DNA from: Desulfurivibrio dismutans | GTDB lineage: Bacteria > Desulfobacterota > Desulfobulbia > Desulfobulbales > Desulfurivibrionaceae | DNA length: 64,000 bases | Reading direction: 5' to 3' | NCBI RefSeq assembly: GCF_029210385.1 | Contig: NZ_JARGDQ010000009.1 | Span: 1 to 64,000 of the forward strand | Part shown: piece after piece, positions 13,577 through 55,679 of the stretch | Numbering within the stretch: the stretch's first letter is position 1 | Layout of the letters: every line of letters starts with the position of its first letter | The notes under the pieces: generated by a model | Seen by the model: only the letters and a program-made list of their open reading frames with translations | Told to the model about the DNA's origin: nothing | The model's database searches: none | Made by a program: the position numbers and the translations under genes

Positions 13577-13962
13577 ACCTCGTCGCTAGGGTTGTGTCTT
13601 GGGTGGTGGTTTTCGTGGGGGTGGGGATAGTGGAGGATACTTTGGTCAACCAGGGATAGGAATGACGGGCCCAATTACCTCGGGACTATTCCTGCCAGGC
13701 AACACCAGGTAAACGGGCCGCAGCACCGCAGGGTGCGGCGGCGGTGGGGGCGCTGGAAGCTGGTTGGGTGTACGCAATTACGGTGGGGTGGTTGTCTGTG
13801 GCAACATGCAAGTGCAAGCTGTGTGCAGCGAAGTAAATTGTTAAGCAACACCAGGTAAACGGGCCGCAGTGCCGCAGGTTGCGGCAAGCAGGCCGGCGCC
13901 GCGTACCCCGGGTACGCAAGTCGGCCTGATCGCCGCAAGATGCGGTGCTGCGGCCCGTTTAC
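13475..13962. other. 488-bp gap with two palindromes and a 25-bp direct repeat
   Basis: No gene is seen between the convergent aldolase and SH3b genes. The gap holds family A copies a and b. A 25-bp segment ending in GGTAAACGGGCCGCAG occurs at 13699-13723 and again, identical, at 13845-13869. The first is followed by a truncated, diverged piece of the element (CACCGCAGGGTGCGGC). Positions 13577-13698 show nothing recognisable. Confidence 0.75.
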
Positions 13963-39771: not shown

Positions 39772-39880
39772 GGAAAACGTACGGCAGTGCCGCAGGTTGC
39801 GGCAAGCGGTCCGGCGCCGCGTACTCCAGTACGCAAGCCGGGCCGATCGCCGCAAGATGCGGTGCTGCCGTACGTTTTCC
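39772..39880 (-). repeat. Family A palindrome, copy g (3' of flgH)
   Basis: Outer arms GGAAAACGTACGGCAG and CTGCCGTACGTTTTCC are perfectly complementary over 16 bp and unlike those of other copies. Inner arm CATCTTGCGGCGATC against CGCTTGCCGCAACCTG; core GCGTAC-tgga-GTACGC. On the minus strand it follows the flgH TAG stop directly. Confidence 0.93.
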
Positions 39881-43987: not shown

Positions 43988-45796
43988 TTACAGCAGCAGA
44001 TAAAACAGCAGTAAAATCAGCAGCACCGAGGCACAGCCGGCCATCGGCCAAAGGGCCACTTGCTTCTCCAGTTGGCGGGCCGGTTGTTGCCAGACGGTGG
44101 CCAGAGTTTGCCACAGTCGCTGGAGCAGTTGGTCCAGAGTCTTGACGGTGCGCCCGGTCCAGCCGGCGCCGGCGTGCCAGGCGGCGGCCAGCCGTTTTAC
44201 GGTGCGGGGTTCCTGGGGCTCGGAGACCAGCCTGGCCGGCCAGCGTCGGCGGAGAAGCCAGGCCAGAGCCAGAGCCGCCAGCAGCGGCAACAGGGTGCCA
44301 GGCAGCATACCGGGCGCCATCGGTAGCGTGAACTCCGGCATCGGCACCGTAATCGCAGGCAGATAAAAAGACCAAAACGGCAGCCCGGAGAGCACCAGCA
44401 GGCCCCAGGGCAGCAGCATCGACCAGGGGGTGGTGGCGGCGGTGTTGTCCGGGCGGTTGTTTTGCTGCCACTGCTGCCGCAGCAGGGCCAAAAAGCGCAG
44501 CAGCAGCAGGGTGGTGGCAAACCCGCTGAGTTTCAGCAGCCACTCCCACCAGCCGGGCGACAACAGGGAGCCGGCGGCAGGATCGGCAAAAAATGCCTGG
44601 CCGAGGGCCAGCAACTGGTCCTTGGCGAAATAACCGCCGGTCAGGGGTGCCCCGGCCAGGGCCAGGGCCGGCAGCAGGACCCCGCAGGTCAGCAGTTTGC
44701 CGTTGATGCGGTAAGCCGCCAGGGCCACTGCCAGAAACAGGGCGCCTTTGGCCAGGCCGTGGTGCAGGGCGTAAAGCTTGATGGTCTCAAGAACCCGGGG
44801 AAAAAGTTCCGGGGCGCTCAAGCCCAGCCCCAGGGCGGTGGTGATAAGCCCCATCTGGCTGATGCTGGACCAGGCCAGCACGGTTTTTGGTTCCTGCCTG
44901 GTCATGCCCATAAAGGCGCCGTAAAAGGCCGCCGCCAGTCCCAGCAGCAGTAGCAGCAGGCCCCATTCCGGCATAGTCGGGCTCGCAGTGGCCGGGTCGA
45001 CCGTGGCGGCGGGGGCCGGAGGGGCCAGAAAGCGCAGCCAGCCCAGCAGGCCGGCCTTGATCATGGCCCCGGAAAGCACGGCGCTGGCTGGTACCGGGGC
45101 GGCGGGGTGCGCCAGCGGCAGCCAGAAGTGCACCGGCAGCATCCCGGCCTTGACGCCGAAGCCCAGCAGAAAAAAGAAGGTAAAGCTGCCCGGCGGCGGT
45201 CCCTCGCCCATTGCCGTTGGCAGGTTTAAGGCGCCGTCGGTGGTGAAAATCAGCCCCAGCAGGCCGACGAAGATCAGCACCTCGCCCAGCACCACCAGGG
45301 TCAGGTAAACCCGGCCGGCCCGCAGGTCGGCTTCGTTGCGGCGGTGAATCACCAGGCCGTAGGCGGCTAGGCCCATGAGGGTGAAAAAGAGGTTGAAGCT
45401 GATCAGGTCATTGGCCAGGATCAGGCCGAAATTGCCGGCCTGGGCCAGCAGAAAGAACAGCAGAAAGTAATGGGCCCGGCGGTCCCGGGCCAGATAGCCG
45501 GCGGCAAACCAGGCGGCAATCAGCCACAGCCAGGCGGTGAAGAGCAGAAAAAAACGGCCGGTGTCATCCAGGCGCAGTTCCGCTCCCAGCAGCAACCAGG
45601 ATAAAGGCAACACCTCTTCACTGCCGGTCAGGGCCAGCATCAGGGCCGGCAGGGCGGTCAGCGGCGCCAGCCGCCGCACCACTCCCCGAGCCGCCGGCCG
45701 GAACAACAGGGCTGCGGCCAGCAGTGGTACGGCCACCGCCAGGGCGAGGCCCATACCCGGCGGCAGGATAGTGATTATTTCGGGGTAACCTTTCAT
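43988..45796 (-). CDS. Third antiporter-like (MrpA/MrpD/NuoL-type) membrane subunit
   Basis: 602 residues, about 14 or more membrane segments and an extended polar C-terminus with a last hydrophobic helix. The proton-conducting family core is visible: FGVKAGMLPVHFWLPLAHPA with PVPASAVLSGAMIKAGLLGW carries the conserved TM7/TM8 lysines, and TVLAWSSISQMGLITTALGL the later signature. The conserved glutamate of TM5 (as in YVGLELL or FYEMLTL of its two neighbours) is absent; here the stretch reads NLFFTLMGLAAYGLVIH. It is the last gene of the Mrp-like operon, 115 bp after the previous subunit. It may have a structural rather than pumping role. Confidence 0.85.
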   Translation of the reverse strand: MKGYPEIITILPPGMGLALAVAVPLLAAALLFRPAARGVVRRLAPLTALPALMLALTGSEEVLPLSWLLLGAELRLDDTGRFFLLFTAWLWLIAAWFAAGYLARDRRAHYFLLFFLLAQAGNFGLILANDLISFNLFFTLMGLAAYGLVIHRRNEADLRAGRVYLTLVVLGEVLIFVGLLGLIFTTDGALNLPTAMGEGPPPGSFTFFFLLGFGVKAGMLPVHFWLPLAHPAAPVPASAVLSGAMIKAGLLGWLRFLAPPAPAATVDPATASPTMPEWGLLLLLLGLAAAFYGAFMGMTRQEPKTVLAWSSISQMGLITTALGLGLSAPELFPRVLETIKLYALHHGLAKGALFLAVALAAYRINGKLLTCGVLLPALALAGAPLTGGYFAKDQLLALGQAFFADPAAGSLLSPGWWEWLLKLSGFATTLLLLRFLALLRQQWQQNNRPDNTAATTPWSMLLPWGLLVLSGLPFWSFYLPAITVPMPEFTLPMAPGMLPGTLLPLLAALALAWLLRRRWPARLVSEPQEPRTVKRLAAAWHAGAGWTGRTVKTLDQLLQRLWQTLATVWQQPARQLEKQVALWPMAGCASVLLILLLFYLLL

Positions 45797-45911
45797 TCTT
45801 TCAGTTGATTGGTTTTTTCGTTTTTAAATTTTCCCGCAGCAGGTCCACACCCGGAACCGCCGGGGGATGCCGCCTCCCCCGTTCATTAAAAGCCGCCAGG
45901 TTTTTGTTGCC

Positions 45912-47429
45912 TTACGGAAAGCCGCCGCTGACGATAAAAATGGCCCACGACAGCGGACTGGCGGGGGCGGCGGCCAGCAGGCCGGCGATAACTACCAGCA
46001 GGGCGGTGATCAGCGACGGGACCAGCAGCATGTTGTTGGCCTCGTGCCCGCCCCGGCGGTGGCCGGCCTGGGCCGCCCGCCGTTCCCGCACCGGCCTGGA
46101 CTGCGGCTCCAGGAACCAGACCCGGTGCAACACCGGCAGGAAATAGGCGGCGTTAAGCAGGGTGCTGACCACCAGCACCGCCAGGATCCAGGGCTGACCG
46201 GCTTCCAGGGCGCCCCAGCCCAAATACCACTTGCTGAAAAAACCGGCCATGGGCGGCAGGCCGATCATGCCCAGTGCACCGATGCTGAAAGCGCCCATGG
46301 TCCAGGGCATTCGCCGGCCCAGGCCGGCCATTTCGTCGATGCGGTGAATGCCCAAAGTTTCCGCCACGTTGCCGGCGCAAAAAAAGAGGGTGATCTTCAT
46401 CAGCCCCTGGTGCACCAGATGGACCAGGCCGCCGGTCACCGCCAGCGGCCCGGCCAGGCTCACCCCCAGGCCGATATAGGAAACCTGGCTCACCGTGGAC
46501 CAGGCCAGCCGTTTTTTGATGTTGTTTTCATTCAAGGCCCGGATGGAGCCGTAAATAATGGTTATTGCGGCAAGAGCGCTCAGCAGCGGCAGCACTCCCA
46601 GCAGCTGGCAAAATTCTAACCCGTAAAGGTCCACCACCACCCGGAAAATCCCGAAGGCTCCGGCTTTGACCACCGCCACTGCGTGCAGCAGAGCGCTGAC
46701 CGGGGCCGGCGCCGCCATGGCCACCGGCAGCCAGCCGCACAGGGGCACCAGGGCCGCCTTAACCCCCAGGCCGGCGATCAGCAGTACGAAGATCAACTGC
46801 AGCGGCAGGCGGTCACCCTCACCGGCGCTGGCGGCTATGACCCCGTTGCCGAAGCTCAGGTCGCCACCCCAGCTCCAGAGCCAGGCGGTGCCCAGCAGCA
46901 GCACGGCGCCGCCGCCCACCGTGTAATAAAGATAGACCTTGCCGGCCTGCAGGGCCTCGGGGGTGCCGCGGTGGACCACCAGGGGGTAGGTGGCCAGGGT
47001 CAGCATTTCGTAAAAGAGCAGGAAGGTGAACAGGTCGCCGGCCAACGAGACTCCCACCGTGGCGCTTACACATAAGCTGAAGAAGCCGAAAAAGCGGCTG
47101 CGGTTGGGGGAGTTTTCCAGGTATCCCACGGCGTAAATGGTGGTCAGCAGCCAGAGCACCGCCGACAGGGTGGCGAAAAAAACCGCCAGGGAGTCGGCTC
47201 GCAGCACCAGGGTAATCCCGGGCAGCAGGGGCATCACCGCCTGGTACTCGATGCCGGCAAAAAGGCCGCGCACCAGAATGCCGATCAGCACCAGTTTGAC
47301 CAGGGCGGCACCCAGGTTGAGGGTGGTGCGCAGGGCGATGCTCTCTTCTTTAAGGAAGAAGATGATGATGCCGACGCAAAAAGAGCTGAACAAAATGGCC
47401 AGCGGCAGCCAGGCGTTGATGTTGCTCAT
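45912..47429 (-). CDS. Second MrpD/NuoN-like antiporter subunit
   Basis: 505 residues from ATG 47427-47429 with GGAGG upstream; an open frame running back to 48296 is only a shadow of the preceding gene. Family core: FTFLLFYEMLTLATYPLVVH (TM5 Glu present), GLGVKAALVPLCGWLPVAMA (Lys) and APVSALLHAVAVVKAGAFGI. KRLAWSTVSQVSYIGLGVSL and MIGLPPMAGFFSKWYLGWGA follow. Fourteen or so membrane segments. It overlaps the preceding mrpD-like gene by 4 bp. With three such subunits the operon resembles Mbh/Mrp-type assemblies more than the textbook mrpABCDEFG order. Confidence 0.9.
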   Translation of the reverse strand: MSNINAWLPLAILFSSFCVGIIIFFLKEESIALRTTLNLGAALVKLVLIGILVRGLFAGIEYQAVMPLLPGITLVLRADSLAVFFATLSAVLWLLTTIYAVGYLENSPNRSRFFGFFSLCVSATVGVSLAGDLFTFLLFYEMLTLATYPLVVHRGTPEALQAGKVYLYYTVGGGAVLLLGTAWLWSWGGDLSFGNGVIAASAGEGDRLPLQLIFVLLIAGLGVKAALVPLCGWLPVAMAAPAPVSALLHAVAVVKAGAFGIFRVVVDLYGLEFCQLLGVLPLLSALAAITIIYGSIRALNENNIKKRLAWSTVSQVSYIGLGVSLAGPLAVTGGLVHLVHQGLMKITLFFCAGNVAETLGIHRIDEMAGLGRRMPWTMGAFSIGALGMIGLPPMAGFFSKWYLGWGALEAGQPWILAVLVVSTLLNAAYFLPVLHRVWFLEPQSRPVRERRAAQAGHRRGGHEANNMLLVPSLITALLVVIAGLLAAAPASPLSWAIFIVSGGFP

Positions 47430-49087
47430 GGCCCTCCTCCCGCAAGAGTCCCGGCCGGCGGCAGCCAGCCGGCGGGCAGACCGCCGCCGGCAATTTCCAG
47501 GGTGAGCCAGGGGAACAGGCCCAGCAGGATGCCGGCCAGGGCCAGCAGCAGAGGGGGCCACTGCATAAAAAGCGGCGCGGCGAAAACGGCGACCGGTTGG
47601 CCGGTGACCTTGGCTGTTTGCCGGTGCCGGGCCGGCCGGGAGAAGGTGGCGGTGACGGGGCGCAGCAGATAGGCGACGCTTAGCAGGCTGCCGCCGATGA
47701 TGGCCAGGGTCCACCACCACTGGCCGGCCTCCATGGTGGCCAGCAGCAGGTACCACTTGCCGATGAAGCCGGAGCTGGGCGGTAGTCCCATCAGGATCAC
47801 GGCGGCCAGGGATATGGTGATGGCGGTCAGCGGTAAGCCTTGGCTCAAGGCCCGGAGATCGCTGACCAGCAGGGGGCGGTCTTGGTTGCCGGGGTTTTGC
47901 GGAGCGGCTTGCGGATCGCCGGTTCGGCTGTTGCTCGGGGGGGCGGTTGGTTGCTGTTGGCCCTTGGCTTTGGAAGGGCACTCCCCAGGGGCCAGGCGAG
48001 GGGTGGGGACAATATACTGCTGGACGGTGCCGGCGGCCAGGAATAAGGCGGTTTTGGCCAGGGCGTGACCGGCCAGGATAAAGAGCAGGCCGTAGAGGGC
48101 GGCCTGGGGGTTGGGGCCCAGCAGCAGGGGGAAGGCCAGAAAGAGGTAGCCCATCTGGGCCACGGTGGAGTAGGCGATTAACTCTTTTAAGGCCTGGCTG
48201 CGCAGGGCCTGCAGGGAGCCCCAGAACACCGCCGCCGCCCCCAGGCCGCCCAGCAGTTGAAAGGCGGCGAAAAGTTCCAGGTCGGCGTGTTGCCACAGCG
48301 GCAGCCAGAGCTTGAGCAGCAGGTAAAGAGAGGCCTTGACCACCAGGGCGGAGAGCAGGGCGCTGGCCGGCGCCGGGGCGTTGGCGTGGGCCGGCGGCAG
48401 CCAGAAGTGGAGAGGGAACAGGGCCGATTTTATGATCAGTCCCAGGGTCATGCCGGCCAGAGCCAGGCGGACCAGCGGATCGGGGGTGGTAAGTTCGGTG
48501 AACAGGGCCAGGTTTAATGAGCCAGTCTGGCGGTAGATCAGTATCACCCCCAGCAGGAAACAGAAGGAACCAAAGATATTCAGCAGCAGGTAACGCAGGG
48601 CGGCCTGCCGGGCGGCGGCTGTACCGGACAGGCTCACCAGGCAGACCGCCGCCAGCCCCAGCAGTTCCAGGCCGACGTAAATATTGAACAGGTCGGCGCT
48701 GAGCAACAGACCGTTGAGGGAGGCCCAGAGCACCAGCCAGAGCGGATAAAAGTAGGTCAGCCGACGGTCATGGGCCGGCGATTGGAAATAACCGGGGCTG
48801 TACAGGCCGACGGCGATATTGATCAGGGCGGTCAACCAGAGCAGCCAGAGGCTCAACCCGTCGGCGGCCAGGCCGATGCCCACTTCCGCCGCCCAGCCGC
48901 CCAGGGGGTAAAGCAGTTGTTCCTGTTTGCCCAGGTCGCCGGTCAGCAAGGCCAGCAGCGTCGCCGTTCCGGCCATGGTGACCAGGCCGCAGAAACGGTT
49001 CCAGCGGGGGGCGGCAAAGGCCAGGATGGCCGCGGCCAGCGGCAAGGCGATCAGCAGGATCGGCCAGGGCGGCGGCAAGGGACTCAT
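47426..49087 (-). CDS. mrpD: MrpD/MnhD-like antiporter subunit
   Basis: 553 residues, inner membrane. Key features: LFNIYVGLELLGLAAVCLVS (TM5 Glu), LGLIIKSALFPLHFWLPPAH (TM7 Lys), APAPASALLSALVVKASLYL (TM8 Lys) and KELIAYSTVAQMGYLFLAFP. A polar insertion of about 40 residues (CPSKAKGQQQPTAPPSNSRT and on, near residue 370) interrupts the membrane part and is unusual for MrpD. Start and stop overlap the adjacent genes by 4 bp each (mrpC before, next subunit after). Part of Na+/H+ exchange driven by the membrane potential. Confidence 0.9.
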   Translation of the reverse strand: MSPLPPPWPILLIALPLAAAILAFAAPRWNRFCGLVTMAGTATLLALLTGDLGKQEQLLYPLGGWAAEVGIGLAADGLSLWLLWLTALINIAVGLYSPGYFQSPAHDRRLTYFYPLWLVLWASLNGLLLSADLFNIYVGLELLGLAAVCLVSLSGTAAARQAALRYLLLNIFGSFCFLLGVILIYRQTGSLNLALFTELTTPDPLVRLALAGMTLGLIIKSALFPLHFWLPPAHANAPAPASALLSALVVKASLYLLLKLWLPLWQHADLELFAAFQLLGGLGAAAVFWGSLQALRSQALKELIAYSTVAQMGYLFLAFPLLLGPNPQAALYGLLFILAGHALAKTALFLAAGTVQQYIVPTPRLAPGECPSKAKGQQQPTAPPSNSRTGDPQAAPQNPGNQDRPLLVSDLRALSQGLPLTAITISLAAVILMGLPPSSGFIGKWYLLLATMEAGQWWWTLAIIGGSLLSVAYLLRPVTATFSRPARHRQTAKVTGQPVAVFAAPLFMQWPPLLLALAGILLGLFPWLTLEIAGGGLPAGWLPPAGTLAGGGP

Positions 49088-49398
49088 TTTCCCGGCTCTC
49101 CCCGGTCAGCGTCCCGGTCCCGGCGGTGTTCTTCTTCCTTTGCCCGAGCGGCCAGGGCCAGGGCGAAACCGGTGATGCTGACGGTGATTACGATCCCGGT
49201 CAGCACCAGGGCGTGAAGAACCGGGTCGGGGTCGCCGTCGGGGTTGTAAGCGACACTGATCATCAACAGAAAGATGCCGCTGCCGCAGATATTAACGGCC
49301 AGAATCCGGTGCAGCAGTTCCTGGCGGGTAAAAAGTGCCACCAGACCCAGCAGAAACAGCATCAGCCCGGTGATCCCATAAAGCAGAGCGGCACTCAT
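49084..49398 (-). CDS. mrpC: MrpC/MnhC (NuoK-like) antiporter subunit
   Basis: 104 residues, three membrane helices in the NuoK fold. The conserved VALFTRQELLHRILAVNICG and GSGIFLLMISVAYN, followed by DPVLHALVLTGIVITVSITG, match MrpC, where the DPxxxALVLTxIVI segment is diagnostic. The C-terminus is highly charged (KEEEHRRDRDADRGEPGK). Overlaps the fused B subunit and mrpD by 4 bp on each side. Confidence 0.92.
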   Translation of the reverse strand: MSAALLYGITGLMLFLLGLVALFTRQELLHRILAVNICGSGIFLLMISVAYNPDGDPDPVLHALVLTGIVITVSITGFALALAARAKEEEHRRDRDADRGEPGK

Positions 49399-50600
49399 CG
49401 CTGTTCCTCCGCCGCCGGCAAGCGGCGTTCGGGGGCGTGTAACTGTTCATCAGGAGGGACAACAGCCTGCTGATTTAAAGGCTCGCGACCGAACAGCCGT
49501 GCCGCAGATTCGGGTAAGCCGCCAGGCGCCGAGTACCCCCTGTACGCAAGCCTGGCTGATCGCCCGCGCGGGATAAAGCGTGCCAGTACCTCTTGCTTTC
49601 GCGACGGTATTTGGCGGCCAAGGTTACCAGAGCTTGGCCAGTCGGCGCTAGCCGCCGACAAGGTGCGGTGCGGCTGTTTGGTTGTGGGGGCGCCGGCGTC
49701 GGGCAGCAAACATAGAGCCAGGCCGATGGAAATGGCCGCCGTCGCCTCAATGGCCAGAATAAAGGCCCCGGCCTGCTCCGCAGGATACTGGAAAAAGAGT
49801 TTGCCCATGGCTAATGGCACGGCGGCCAGCCCGAGAAAGATCAGGGAGCCGCCCACCAGGGTGGCCCGCAGCAAGGGCCGGGGACAGAAACTCGGCAGGG
49901 GCCGACCGGCCAGGGCCAGCAGAATGCCGGCGGCCCCCAGTACTGCCCCGCCCTGAAAGGCGCCGCCCGGTGCGTGTTCCCCCAGCCAGACCAGGTAGCC
50001 GGCCACCAGGATGGCAAAGGGCAGAATCCCCCGGATCATGGTCAATAGAATGGGGTTGACCGCCATCCCCGCCGGTGGGCGGGCCGCCCGGCCCAGGGAC
50101 CAGATCCCGATCACCGCCAGCAGCAGCACCGCCAGTTCCAGCAGGGTGTCAAAGCTGCGAAAGTTGAGCAGCACGGCGGTCACCTGGTTGCTCACTCCGC
50201 TCAACGGCATGGCCTCGCTGGTAACCGCCGCCGGCCCCAGCCGCGAGGCGGGATAAGACCACAACAACCATCCTCCCACCCCCAATAACACCAGGGCCCC
50301 CAGCCCACAGGTAAAAACCGCCCACCAGGGACCGCTTGCCGCAGGATCTGGCGCTGCTGGACGTTTAAGAAGACCGAGGTAGGAGAGGAGCAGCGCTCCG
50401 CTGATCCCGGCCCCGATGGCCGCTTCGGCCAGGCCCACCTCCAGAGCGTCCAGGCGTACCCAGGCCAGGGCCATGACCAGTCCCAGGGCGATGAACAGCA
50501 CCACGGCCCGAAACTTATCCCGGCTGAACAGCACCGCCCAGGCCAGGCCCAGCAGAGTGACGGCCAGGGTAATATCCAGCCCCCAGGTCAGCAGATTCAT
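49395..50600 (-). CDS. Fused MbhD-MbhE-MnhB antiporter subunit with repeat-derived tail
   Basis: 401 residues. Residues 1-75 match the MbhD/DUF4040 unit (DALEVGLAEAAIGAGISGAL). Residues about 92-165 match MbhE (SNQVTAVLLNFRSFDTLLEL). Residues about 175-300 match MnhB/MbhF (NPILLTMIRGILPFAILVAG, EHAPGGAFQGGAVLGAAGIL). In standard Mrp the first two belong to the MrpA C-terminus. The linker at residues 79-90 is a half family A element, and residues about 307-371 are encoded by an interrupted family A copy. The true membrane protein ends near residue 306; the last 95 residues look like an acquired tail. Coupled by 4-bp overlaps to both neighbours. Confidence 0.87.
   Translation of the reverse strand: MNLLTWGLDITLAVTLLGLAWAVLFSRDKFRAVVLFIALGLVMALAWVRLDALEVGLAEAAIGAGISGALLLSYLGLLKRPAAPDPAASGPWWAVFTCGLGALVLLGVGGWLLWSYPASRLGPAAVTSEAMPLSGVSNQVTAVLLNFRSFDTLLELAVLLLAVIGIWSLGRAARPPAGMAVNPILLTMIRGILPFAILVAGYLVWLGEHAPGGAFQGGAVLGAAGILLALAGRPLPSFCPRPLLRATLVGGSLIFLGLAAVPLAMGKLFFQYPAEQAGAFILAIEATAAISIGLALCLLPDAGAPTTKQPHRTLSAASADWPSSGNLGRQIPSRKQEVLARFIPRGRSARLAYRGYSAPGGLPESAARLFGREPLNQQAVVPPDEQLHAPERRLPAAEEQR
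49488..49682 (-). repeat. Family A palindrome, copy j, interrupted, inside coding sequence
   Basis: The left part (49488-49566) runs from ACCGAACAGCCGTGCCGCAG through the core GAGTAC-cccct-GTACGC to GGCTGATCGCCCG. The distal arm CAAGGTGCGGTGCGGCTGTT lies at about 49659-49680. Between them are about 92 bp of other sequence with faint likeness to family D (CTTGCTTTCGCG, CCAGTCGGCG). Everything is in frame with the fused B subunit. Confidence 0.75.
50332..50367. repeat. Half family A element inside the fused B subunit
   Basis: The 36 bases from CCGCTTGCCGCAGGATCTG to CTGGACGTTTA match one arm of copy m (55643-55678) with few changes. They encode the linker LLKRPAAPDPAASG between the MbhD and MbhE units. 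Confidence 0.65.
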
Positions 50601-50911
50601 GGTTTATTTTCCGTTGCCGCCGGCCGGCCCTGGTCGCGCCTGGCGGTGGCGCCCACCAGGTGACCGGCGGTGGCGCCGGCGGACAGCACCAGCACCCAGA
50701 TCAACAGCAACTCGGCCCCGGCCGCCGGGCTCCAGTTGCGCAGGATCAGCCCCGTCACCAGCAGCCCCAGGCCGACGTTATCCGCTTTGGTCACCGCGTG
50801 AATGCGGGTAAGGGTGTCGGGAAACCTGAGCAGGCCCACGGTGCCGGCCAGAAAAAAAGGCATGGCCGCCACGATCAGCCCCAGGGCCAGCCAGTGCCGA
50901 ATATCCGCCAT
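50597..50911 (-). CDS. mrpG: MrpG/MnhG antiporter subunit
   Basis: 104 residues from ATG 50909-50911; a TTG two codons upstream is possible, since GGAG is only 3 bp from the ATG. A frame extending to 51427 is a shadow of mrpE/mrpF. Three membrane helices with GTVGLLRFPDTLTRIHAVTK and ADNVGLGLLVTGLILRN, the MnhG core. Overlaps the fused B subunit by 4 bp and follows mrpF by 11 bp. Confidence 0.9.
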   Translation of the reverse strand: MADIRHWLALGLIVAAMPFFLAGTVGLLRFPDTLTRIHAVTKADNVGLGLLVTGLILRNWSPAAGAELLLIWVLVLSAGATAGHLVGATARRDQGRPAATENKP

Positions 50912-50922
50912 CAGCTCCAAAA

Positions 50923-51273
50923 TTATGCCTTCTTCTCTGTGTTCAAGGACGCGGTTTTTATGGTCTCTGTCTTCCCCGGCGCTGTTTTCGCCGCCCGGAA
51001 CGTGGTGGTGGCCTCGGCGCCCCGGTAGCGGCGGACGAAGGTGATCACCGCCACCGCCGCCAGCATGGCATAAACCAGGGCGATATGGCGCAGGGTGGGG
51101 TGATTGGAAACTTCCGCCAGCAGCAGGAAAATTCCCACCCCACTGGTGCCGAACAGCTGGGCGGTGAGCATCCGGTCCGCCGCTGTGGGGCCTTTGACCA
51201 CCCGAAGCAGCCCAAGGCAGATGGTCAGCAGCAAAAAAAGTACGCAGGCCAGCAACAGGGTGGTGTCGTTCAT
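50923..51273 (-). CDS. mrpF: MrpF/MnhF antiporter subunit
   Basis: 116 residues, three membrane helices. Core motif RVVKGPTAADRMLTAQLFGT is the MnhF signature; a following SGVGIFLLLAEVSNHPTLRH and IALVYAMLAAVAVITFVRRY complete the fold. The C-terminal 30 residues are polar and poorly conserved. Starts in a 4-bp overlap with mrpE. Confidence 0.93.
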   Translation of the reverse strand: MNDTTLLLACVLFLLLTICLGLLRVVKGPTAADRMLTAQLFGTSGVGIFLLLAEVSNHPTLRHIALVYAMLAAVAVITFVRRYRGAEATTTFRAAKTAPGKTETIKTASLNTEKKA

Positions 51274-51815
51274 GGTGGTGGTGCCTCCGACGCGCTTCCC
51301 GGCCGTTCGGCGGCTGGTTCACTTTCCTGCCGGAACAACTCGTCGATCCTGGTTTCCAGTCGGCGCAGGTCCTGTTCCAGGCCGGCGTCGTCGTCCAGGC
51401 TGTGGATCTCCAGCTTTTCCCGGTCAAAACCGACGCTGAGGGTGCCCGGCAGCAGAGAAACGGTGTTGGCGAAAAAAACCCGGGCCGGCCCTTCGGACAG
51501 GCGCCAGCGGAAAGTGACCAGGGTGGGCGCCAGGCGAGGATTACGACTGAAGGCCCGGCGGGCTACATCAGTGCCGGCCAGCAGCGAGCGCAGCAGAAAA
51601 AAAGGCAAGAAACGCAGCAGTCCCAGTGGCCGCCAGACCCAGGAGCGGCCCGGAGGCAGCAGCAGCGAGGCCACGGCGGCAGAAATCACCACCACCAGGC
51701 CGGGCAGCAGGCCGTCGGGGGCGGCGCCGGTGAGCACCAGCCAGACGACTGCCAGTTCCAGGCTGCGACGCAGCAGTCGGCGGGCGTAGTGGCGGTGGTC
51801 GGCAAAGAGGATCAT
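51270..51815 (-). CDS. mrpE: MrpE/MnhE antiporter subunit, first gene of the operon
   Basis: 181 residues. Membrane helices at the N-terminus (AVVWLVLTGAAPDGLLPGLV), then LLRFLPFFLLRSLLAGTDVA and FFANTVSLLPGTLSVGFD. The ANTVSLLPGTLSV stretch is diagnostic of MnhE (ANxITLTPGT in others). Soluble C-terminal end is EIHSLDDDAG and an acidic tail. No obvious ribosome site precedes the ATG; the leader holds an inverted repeat (51870-51905). It begins the E-F-G-B-C-D-D-D order. Confidence 0.92.
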   Translation of the reverse strand: MILFADHRHYARRLLRRSLELAVVWLVLTGAAPDGLLPGLVVVISAAVASLLLPPGRSWVWRPLGLLRFLPFFLLRSLLAGTDVARRAFSRNPRLAPTLVTFRWRLSEGPARVFFANTVSLLPGTLSVGFDREKLEIHSLDDDAGLEQDLRRLETRIDELFRQESEPAAERPGSASEAPPP

Positions 51816-51869: not shown

Positions 51870-51905
51870 CACTTCGTAAGTGTTAACCACAGGGCCAACG
51901 AAGTG
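51870..51905. promoter_or_regulatory. Inverted repeat upstream of the Mrp operon
   Basis: CACTTCGT (51870-51877) and ACGAAGTG (51898-51905) form a perfect 8-bp inverted repeat with 20 bp between, and CACTTCGTAAGTG has a smaller internal dyad. On the minus strand GATAAT lies about 10-15 bp further downstream and could be the -10 box. This suits an operator for an ion- or pH-responsive regulator, unnamed. Confidence 0.4.
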
Positions 51906-51920
51906 TTGATTTAACGGGCT

Positions 51921-52029
51921 GTAAACGTTCTGCAGTGCCCCAGATTCGGGCAAGCAGCCAAGCGCCGCGTACCCCGTGTACGTAAGCTTGGCTGATCGCC
52001 CGAAGGTGGGGGTGCGGCTGAACGTTTAC
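51921..52029 (-). repeat. Family A palindrome, copy l (between mrpE and queC)
   Basis: Arms GTAAACGTTC and GAACGTTTAC, inner CAGATTCGGGCAAGC against GATCGCCCGAAGG, core GCGTAC-cccgt-GTACGT. It lies between divergent genes and is not next to a stop codon. Confidence 0.9.
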
Positions 52030-55571: not shown

Positions 55572-55679
55572 GTAAACGTCCAGCAGCACCGCATCTTGCG
55601 GCGATCAGCCCGGCTTGCGTACCTGGAGTACGCGGCTCCGAGCCGCTTGCCGCAACCTGCGGCACTGCTGAACGTTTAC
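55572..55679 (+). repeat. Family A palindrome, copy m (3' of nadA)
   Basis: Arms GTAAACGTCCAGCAG and CTGCTGAACGTTTAC; inner CATCTTGCGGCGATC against CGCTTGCCGCAACCTG; core GCGTAC-ctgga-GTACGC. It begins 3 bp after the nadA stop and is a good reference copy. Confidence 0.93.

Follow-up and report, generated by a model that had tools for sequence, protein, structure and literature searches.

A 64,000-nucleotide stretch of the Desulfurivibrio dismutans genome (contig NZ_JARGDQ010000009.1, positions 1 to 64,000; hereafter the window) carries an eight-gene operon that probably encodes a stand-alone group 3 Mrp cation/proton antiporter, with MrpA split and one additional pump module. The operon lies on the minus strand, running from 51815 to 43988, and open reading frames (ORFs) together with a Pfam profile search give the order E-F-G-(MbhD-MbhE-MnhB)-C-D1-D2-D3, in which the bracketed parts form one fused protein and D1, D2 and D3 each contain a Proton_antipo_M domain. 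As a system the operon type is known; what is new is how consistently features are divided between D2 and D3. The observations comprise the gene content, the fold class of D1 and D3, the phylogeny, the key residues and the absence of a redox partner from the host genome and the flanks searched. The genes and one inserted element are as follows.

51270-51815, minus strand: mrpE, 181 amino acids (aa); PF01899 (MNHE), E-value 7e-25, residues 21-157.
50923-51273, minus strand: mrpF, 116 aa; PF04066 (MrpF_PhaF), E-value 2.1e-10.
50597-50911, minus strand: mrpG, 104 aa; PF03334 (PhaG_MnhG_YufB), E-value 3.6e-21; the start codon was chosen, and the open frame runs further upstream.
49395-50600, minus strand: fused MbhD-MbhE-MnhB (C-terminal part of MrpA plus MrpB), 401 aa; PF13244, PF20501 and PF04039.
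49455-49566, minus strand: copy of a dispersed hairpin repeat of ~108 nt, forming, in frame, the tail of the fusion protein; identified from repeat families and from matches of the tail elsewhere in the genome.
49084-49398, minus strand: mrpC (NuoK-like), 104 aa; PF00420 (Oxidored_q2), E-value 8.1e-14.
47426-49087, minus strand: D1, MrpD orthologue, 553 aa; placed by the tree with MrpD and by the structure match of its AlphaFold2 (AF2) model.
45912-47429, minus strand: D2, extra antiporter subunit, 505 aa; related to MrpD1 of green complex I, with a His of MrpA type in transmembrane helix (TM) 8.
43988-45796, minus strand: D3, end subunit, 602 aa; lateral helix, MrpA-N/NuoL-like fold, no TM5 Glu, TM6 Glu172.

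All eight reading frames are open. Adjacent genes overlap by 4 nt at five junctions (mrpE/mrpF, mrpG/fusion, fusion/mrpC, mrpC/D1 and D1/D2), and gaps of 11 nt and 115 nt separate mrpF from mrpG and D2 from D3. All Mrp subunit families are thus encoded together (E, F, G, C, D and an MrpB domain), with the parts of MrpA split. Group 3 Mrp systems are defined by the lack of mrpA and the presence of only mrpD-like genes, sometimes several (PMC8415708), and the window operon falls under this definition. A previous reading of the window made from the letters alone (the sequence-only reading) had given the operon this position, gene order and set of family assignments, with three separate antiporter-like subunits, no MrpA in the operon and no redox module within the window; all of this is borne out. 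The likeness it drew to archaeal Mrp/Mbh arms also holds, an example being the stand-alone mrpEFGBB'CD of P. furiosus (PMC8415708). Its fusion of MbhD and MbhE to MnhB is real, with the correction that the last ~95 residues are a dispersed repeat rather than MnhB. Its word 'atypical', however, has to be given up. Searching named bacterial genomes with the fused protein yielded at least 516 relatives; in the best 80, to which all locus counts refer, 58 show the identical order, most of the others are interrupted at contig ends, and three have mrpE at the far end of the operon. The same order in so many loci means that the layout cannot be chance. Owing to the query, this sample of 80 cannot show how frequent unfused parts are; split forms exist (L058, L084, L109 and L142). 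The relatives include Thioalkalivibrio, Ectothiorhodospira, Halomonas, Nitrosomonas, Paracoccus, Nitrospira and Verrucomicrobia, many from haloalkaliphiles. The three-antiporter group 3 Mrp operon is a widespread bacterial type, frequent in soda-lake bacteria. A scan of 297 genomes of the window's own phylum, Desulfobacterota, with the same query found the protein matched in 94 at E <= 0.001, but strongly (E < 1e-30) in only 7: the window's genome (G000), G195 of the same genus, G077, G178, G197, G244 and G145. G195 holds at least two Mrp-type operons.

The three antiporter subunits were placed in two trees, one of 99 rows and one of 86 (thinned from 102). D1, D2 and D3 each form one clade in both, with support of 99-100 in the Shimodaira-Hasegawa-like approximate likelihood ratio test (SH-aLRT). 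They are members of three distinct families rather than copies of a single subunit. D1 clusters with MrpD in both trees, and the best solved match of its AF2 model is MrpD (7qru_D; Z 46.5, root-mean-square deviation 2.1, 473 residues aligned). The partners of D2 in its clade are MrpD1 of the Sinorhizobium meliloti green complex I, subunits of the host's own complex I and of its C23 and C28 operons, and one haloarchaeal subunit. D3 forms a separate clade in both trees, placed without resolution relative to MrpA and NuoL. MbhH, MbsH and MbsH' are absent from the trees and were compared through structure and profile matches only.

The AF2 model of D3, built from a 44-row alignment, has a predicted local distance difference test (pLDDT) score of 87.1 and the antiporter architecture. 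Its C-terminus consists of a 33-residue lateral helix (549-581) followed by the last, anchoring helix (583-601). In a VIA search the model matches MrpA (7qru_A, Z 39.5), with model residues 14-585 on chain residues 1-579, from the first helix through the lateral helix; it also matches NuoL (7p7l_L, Z 40.9) and MbsH' (6u8y_X, Z 38.3), and it superposes on NuoL, helices 1-16 of MrpA and MbsH' across residues 14-588. As modelled, D3 has the end-subunit fold of MrpA-N and NuoL: a 14-helix antiporter fold, a lateral helix and an anchoring helix. In a subgroup of short D3 proteins (L067, L109, L112, L119, L126 and L133; 431-448 aa) the lateral-helix region is missing and the TM6 acid is Asp.

Aligning the subunits with 30 references separates D2 from D3 by their key residues. 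TM5 Glu is present in 81/81 D1, 70/71 D2 and 30/30 reference sequences, and in 0/72 D3. An acid in TM6 occurs in every D3 (65 Glu and 7 Asp in 72 rows) and in none of the D1, D2 or reference sequences; TM7 Lys is kept in 71/72 D3. The MrpA-type TM8 His is found in 70/70 D2 and in no D1 or D3. D2 retains with it TM5 Glu and the lysines of TM7, TM8 and TM12; the MrpA-type residue set sits in D2. The TM6-acid counts exclude L116_D3 (wrong frame), and the L116 rows are left out of the D1, D2 and D3 counts for TM7 and TM8; the lone D2 row without TM5 Glu is among the rows dropped before the TM8 His count. G077 and L068 appear to be one contig and are both counted in these tallies. We rejected the TM6 acid as a D3-only feature, that is, as a swap from TM5 to TM6: the first 30 references held no true NuoL, and when added to the alignment, C. 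freundii NuoL and a Methylocystis sequence both have Asp in the TM6 column, the latter without TM5 Glu. We take the Methylocystis sequence to be DabB, since the adjoining gene is annotated DUF2309. The D3 signature that remains is loss of TM5 Glu across the clade with the TM6 acid kept. No description of it was found in the open-licence literature searched, which does not make it unpublished. In published models TM5 Glu exchanges protons with the TM12 site of the neighbouring subunit (PMC10212512, PMC7419157), and replacing E140 of MrpA by Ala eliminates antiport by the B. pseudofirmus Mrp (PMC5703873). D3, lacking this Glu, therefore cannot work exactly like MrpA.

The fusion protein would supply the other part of MrpA. 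Its Pfam domains are MbhD (residues 15-79), MbhE (126-178) and MnhB (184-278), and NCBIfam NF009161, a 336-aa fused B subunit of about the same layout, matches it with E 1.5e-27, below the curated cut-off of that family. About 305 of the 401 residues are real protein. Of 84 fusion ORFs, 67 matched a regular expression for the MbhD-type Glu motif (Glu59 here); the others did not match that expression. Four MrpA sequences read at this position have Gln, with an acid four residues further; haloarchaeal DUF4040 also has Glu.

The repeat that forms the protein's tail recurs in the window at 55572-55679 (the best copy), 51891-52002, 39775-39877, 13855-13962 and other places. Its predicted fold has a minimum free energy of -61.5 kcal/mol (z -6.7). 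Match rows number 52 in the window's genome, 48 in G195 and 3 in G218, some rows being one place on both strands, and G240 and G145 have no matches. In the orthologous fusion frame of G195 another copy lies in the MbhD-MbhE linker, and the MrpG of the host's C28 operon (L016:4178-4726) has an 80-residue tail past its domain whose sequence resembles the repeat. The element looks like a coding-tolerant palindromic element of the genus Desulfurivibrio.

In the mechanism that we infer, which covers transport activity, ion, direction, stoichiometry and the position of D2, protons would enter from outside via the antiporter subunits. Their charge would be relayed along a central axis, made up of D2, D1, MrpC and the fusion protein's MbhD/E part, as far as E-F-G-B, the module that would expel Na+ (or K+). 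In this reading MrpA is split: its first 16 helices, lateral helix included, correspond to D3 and its last five to the MbhD/E part. D1 is MrpD, and D2 would act as an extra pump module placed between D1 and D3. With three antiporter modules versus two in group 1/2 Mrp, the complex could move more protons per Na+, and in a haloalkaliphile it would limit both the alkalinity and the Na+ content of the cytoplasm. A further step is possible, although on balance we doubt it: in the three-pump clade, the gained D2 may have taken over the histidine-switch role of MrpA, leaving D3 as a brace and terminal charge relay whose TM6 carboxylate replaces the lost TM5 Glu.

Loci without D2 bear on its place in the complex. 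D2 is absent from 8/80 loci (L091, L096, L098, L103, L139, L101, L108 and L131), which form one clade in the tree, and was probably lost once among them. In L101, L108 and L131 (two Halomonas and one Marinospirillum) D1 and D3 are a single chain of 952-975 aa. D1 and D3 therefore make up the core pair, and D2 is dispensable. The D3 tail after TM12 Lys has a median of 171 residues without D2 (range 158-179, 8 rows) and 201 with D2 (63 rows; L068_D3 was left out of the tree comparison of tails); the shortening agrees with a lateral helix that spans D2, but because D2 loss is a single event, this difference of ~30 residues amounts to one independent observation, an illustration rather than a statistical test. 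For complex I with extra pumps, a 26-residue insertion is reported (PMC9040806). Besides the single origin of the tail difference, several findings weigh against the antiporter as drawn above. Among the 58 long D3 rows from loci with D2, four are no longer than the rows from loci without it, and six short D3 proteins have no lateral-helix region despite the presence of D2. Two of the 80 loci, L082 and L132, show no D3 though the contig continues. D3 lacks the counterpart of MrpA E140, which is needed for antiport in B. pseudofirmus Mrp (PMC5703873). In G145 a Hyf-like cluster (HyfB-, C-, E- and F-like proteins and a NuoC/D-like protein) adjoins the operon, divergently transcribed.

This last finding touches the question, left undecided by the sequence-only reading, of whether the operon is a stand-alone exchanger or the arm of a complex encoded elsewhere. 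The host, which is probably haloalkaliphilic, has a nearly complete genome of 2.84 Mb with 15 Proton_antipo_M matches. Complex I on C12 accounts for four of them, C28 for another four and C23 for three; the remainder are in the window, D1 being matched in two pieces. The genome has three Mrp-type operons, those of the window, C28 and C23. Its three MbhD matches are stand-alone or fused to MnhB; none lies in an antiporter-domain frame, and therefore the host has no full MrpA. The sequence-only reading had named a full MrpA elsewhere, or three subunits all inside the MrpA and MrpD clades, as signs that it was mistaken: the former was not found, and of the latter only the part concerning D1 came true, D2 and D3 falling outside both clades. 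Nor did the genome search that it proposed turn up a detached MBH-like redox module in the host. Five NuoB-like proteins are present, identified from their translations as one of complex I, three hydrogenase small subunits with TAT-like signal sequences that adjoin NiFe large subunits, and one of a Hox-type cluster beside a NuoF-like gene and a NiFe large-subunit gene. NuoH and a quinone module are absent from the window, and the host encodes its complex I elsewhere, at a locus on C12. Across 729 flanking ORFs of 78/80 loci, NuoB, NuoD, NuoH, NuoI, the NiFe large subunit, NuoF and a HyfA-like ferredoxin subunit had no match at E 1e-5. The commonest conserved neighbours of checked Pfam identity are a P-type cation ATPase (16/80 loci) and a universal stress protein (11/80); the ATPase fits the stand-alone reading.

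Three other explanations were weighed. That the operon is the membrane arm of a larger redox-driven complex, with a ferredoxin- or quinone-linked module encoded elsewhere as in archaeal MBH and MBS, would account for the fused MbhD-E-MnhB, the MbsH'-like fold of D3 and the NuoD-like and NuoH-like proteins of the Hyf-like cluster in G145. That cluster, however, has its own antiporter subunits and the opposite direction of transcription, and further operons at order or family level (G315, G320, G322, G323 and G326) have no Hyf-like neighbour. The five NuoB-like proteins of the host have their own partners, and the flanks gave no redox match while the same queries recovered known relatives in control loci. 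We consider this arm improbable and favour the stand-alone exchanger. Somewhat less improbable, though still unlikely, is an Mrp-type exchanger that chiefly does something other than Na+/H+ exchange for alkaline pH, such as moving K+ or Ca2+ or supporting another transporter. According to PMC5703873, the T. roseum Mrp exchanges Ca2+ for H+ and some Mrp transport K+; a division of labour is likely with three Mrp-type operons in the host, and the P-type cation ATPase neighbours also speak for it. Against it, relatives in haloalkaliphiles are called Na+/H+ antiporters, all by annotation (PMC13274419, PMC7784846, PMC5016858). A decaying or non-functional copy is very improbable. The repeat at the 3' end of the fusion gene and the missing TM5 Glu of D3 could be taken as decay; yet all frames are open, the G195 orthologues are 70-91% identical over the aligned parts, the insertions fall in the linker and tail outside the membrane domains, and the D3 signature is clade-wide and therefore conserved.

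The exchanger has several known relatives. Mnh/MrpEFGBCD1D2D3, named in the soda-lake verrucomicrobium Verruconatronum alginivorum (PMC13274419), has the same gene content and order in another lineage and is likewise known by annotation. The same holds for content and order in Rhizobium rosettiformans p4 (NZ_CP032409.1), also of another lineage, where the fused gene is annotated 'hydrogenase subunit MbhD domain-containing protein'. An MrpEFGBBCDD arrangement is in print (PMC4287430), two NuoM/L-like genes follow mrpD in Nitrospira group 3 Mrp (PMC7784846), and a six-gene mrpBCDEFG operon is described in Desulfurivibrio alkaliphilus (PMC5016858). The P. furiosus Mrp shares the lack of mrpA and, according to PMC8415708, of an energy-input module, E-F-G in first place and B parts before C, but has two separate B genes and a single D and is archaeal; it uses Na+, and its deletion affects the pH response. 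Group 1/2 Mrp (MrpABCDEFG; 6z16, 7d3u, 7qru) has E, F, G, C and D in common with the window, D1 resembling MrpD in clade and fold and the D3 model helices 1-16 of MrpA, whereas the window operon has no full MrpA, MbhD/E fused to MnhB, the extra D2, and a D3 without TM5 Glu and TM8 His. Green complex I (S. meliloti pSymA; PMC9040806) shares the extra MrpD-like subunit in the clade of D2; it differs in having NuoA-D, H and I, and its end subunit, green MrpD2, belongs to a clade other than D3 and keeps TM5 Glu. The membrane arm of P. furiosus MBS (6u8y) shares the MbsH'-like end subunit with a lateral helix, while the MBS redox module has no counterpart here.

The surrounding genes are a divergent queC-like gene upstream and flagellar genes downstream, read from translations. 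The C28 (L016) and C23 (L017) operons are also of group 3 Mrp type; C28 has four antiporter subunits, the last of 803 aa, and C23 has three. The complex I encoded at the C12 locus (L018) belongs to the green type: NuoL is replaced by two MrpD-like subunits, which NuoM and NuoN follow, and the genes read nearby include no NuoE, NuoF or NuoG. Between the two MrpD-like genes lies an 83-84-aa protein without a Pfam match, in complex I (L018:11910-12161) as in the C23 operon (L017:7767-8021); the complex I copy is 51% identical to a C23-type copy in G195, and at the same position the green complex I of S. meliloti includes a hypothetical protein of 84 aa. It is possibly an unnamed subunit.

Group 3 Mrp is little studied, though the operon type is frequent in soda-lake bacteria, and three Mrp-type operons in one genome invite study of their division of labour. 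With its complex-I-like arm of three pump modules and its lack of a redox module, the antiporter is suited to testing how the coupling ratio depends on pump-module number. How D2 and D3 share out their features deserves experiment, and clade-wide loss of a glutamate essential in MrpA offers a direct test of current coupling models. If the tentative roles of D2 and D3 are correct, the proton:cation stoichiometry would differ from that of group 1/2 Mrp, and domino models that require TM5 Glu in each next subunit would meet a natural exception.

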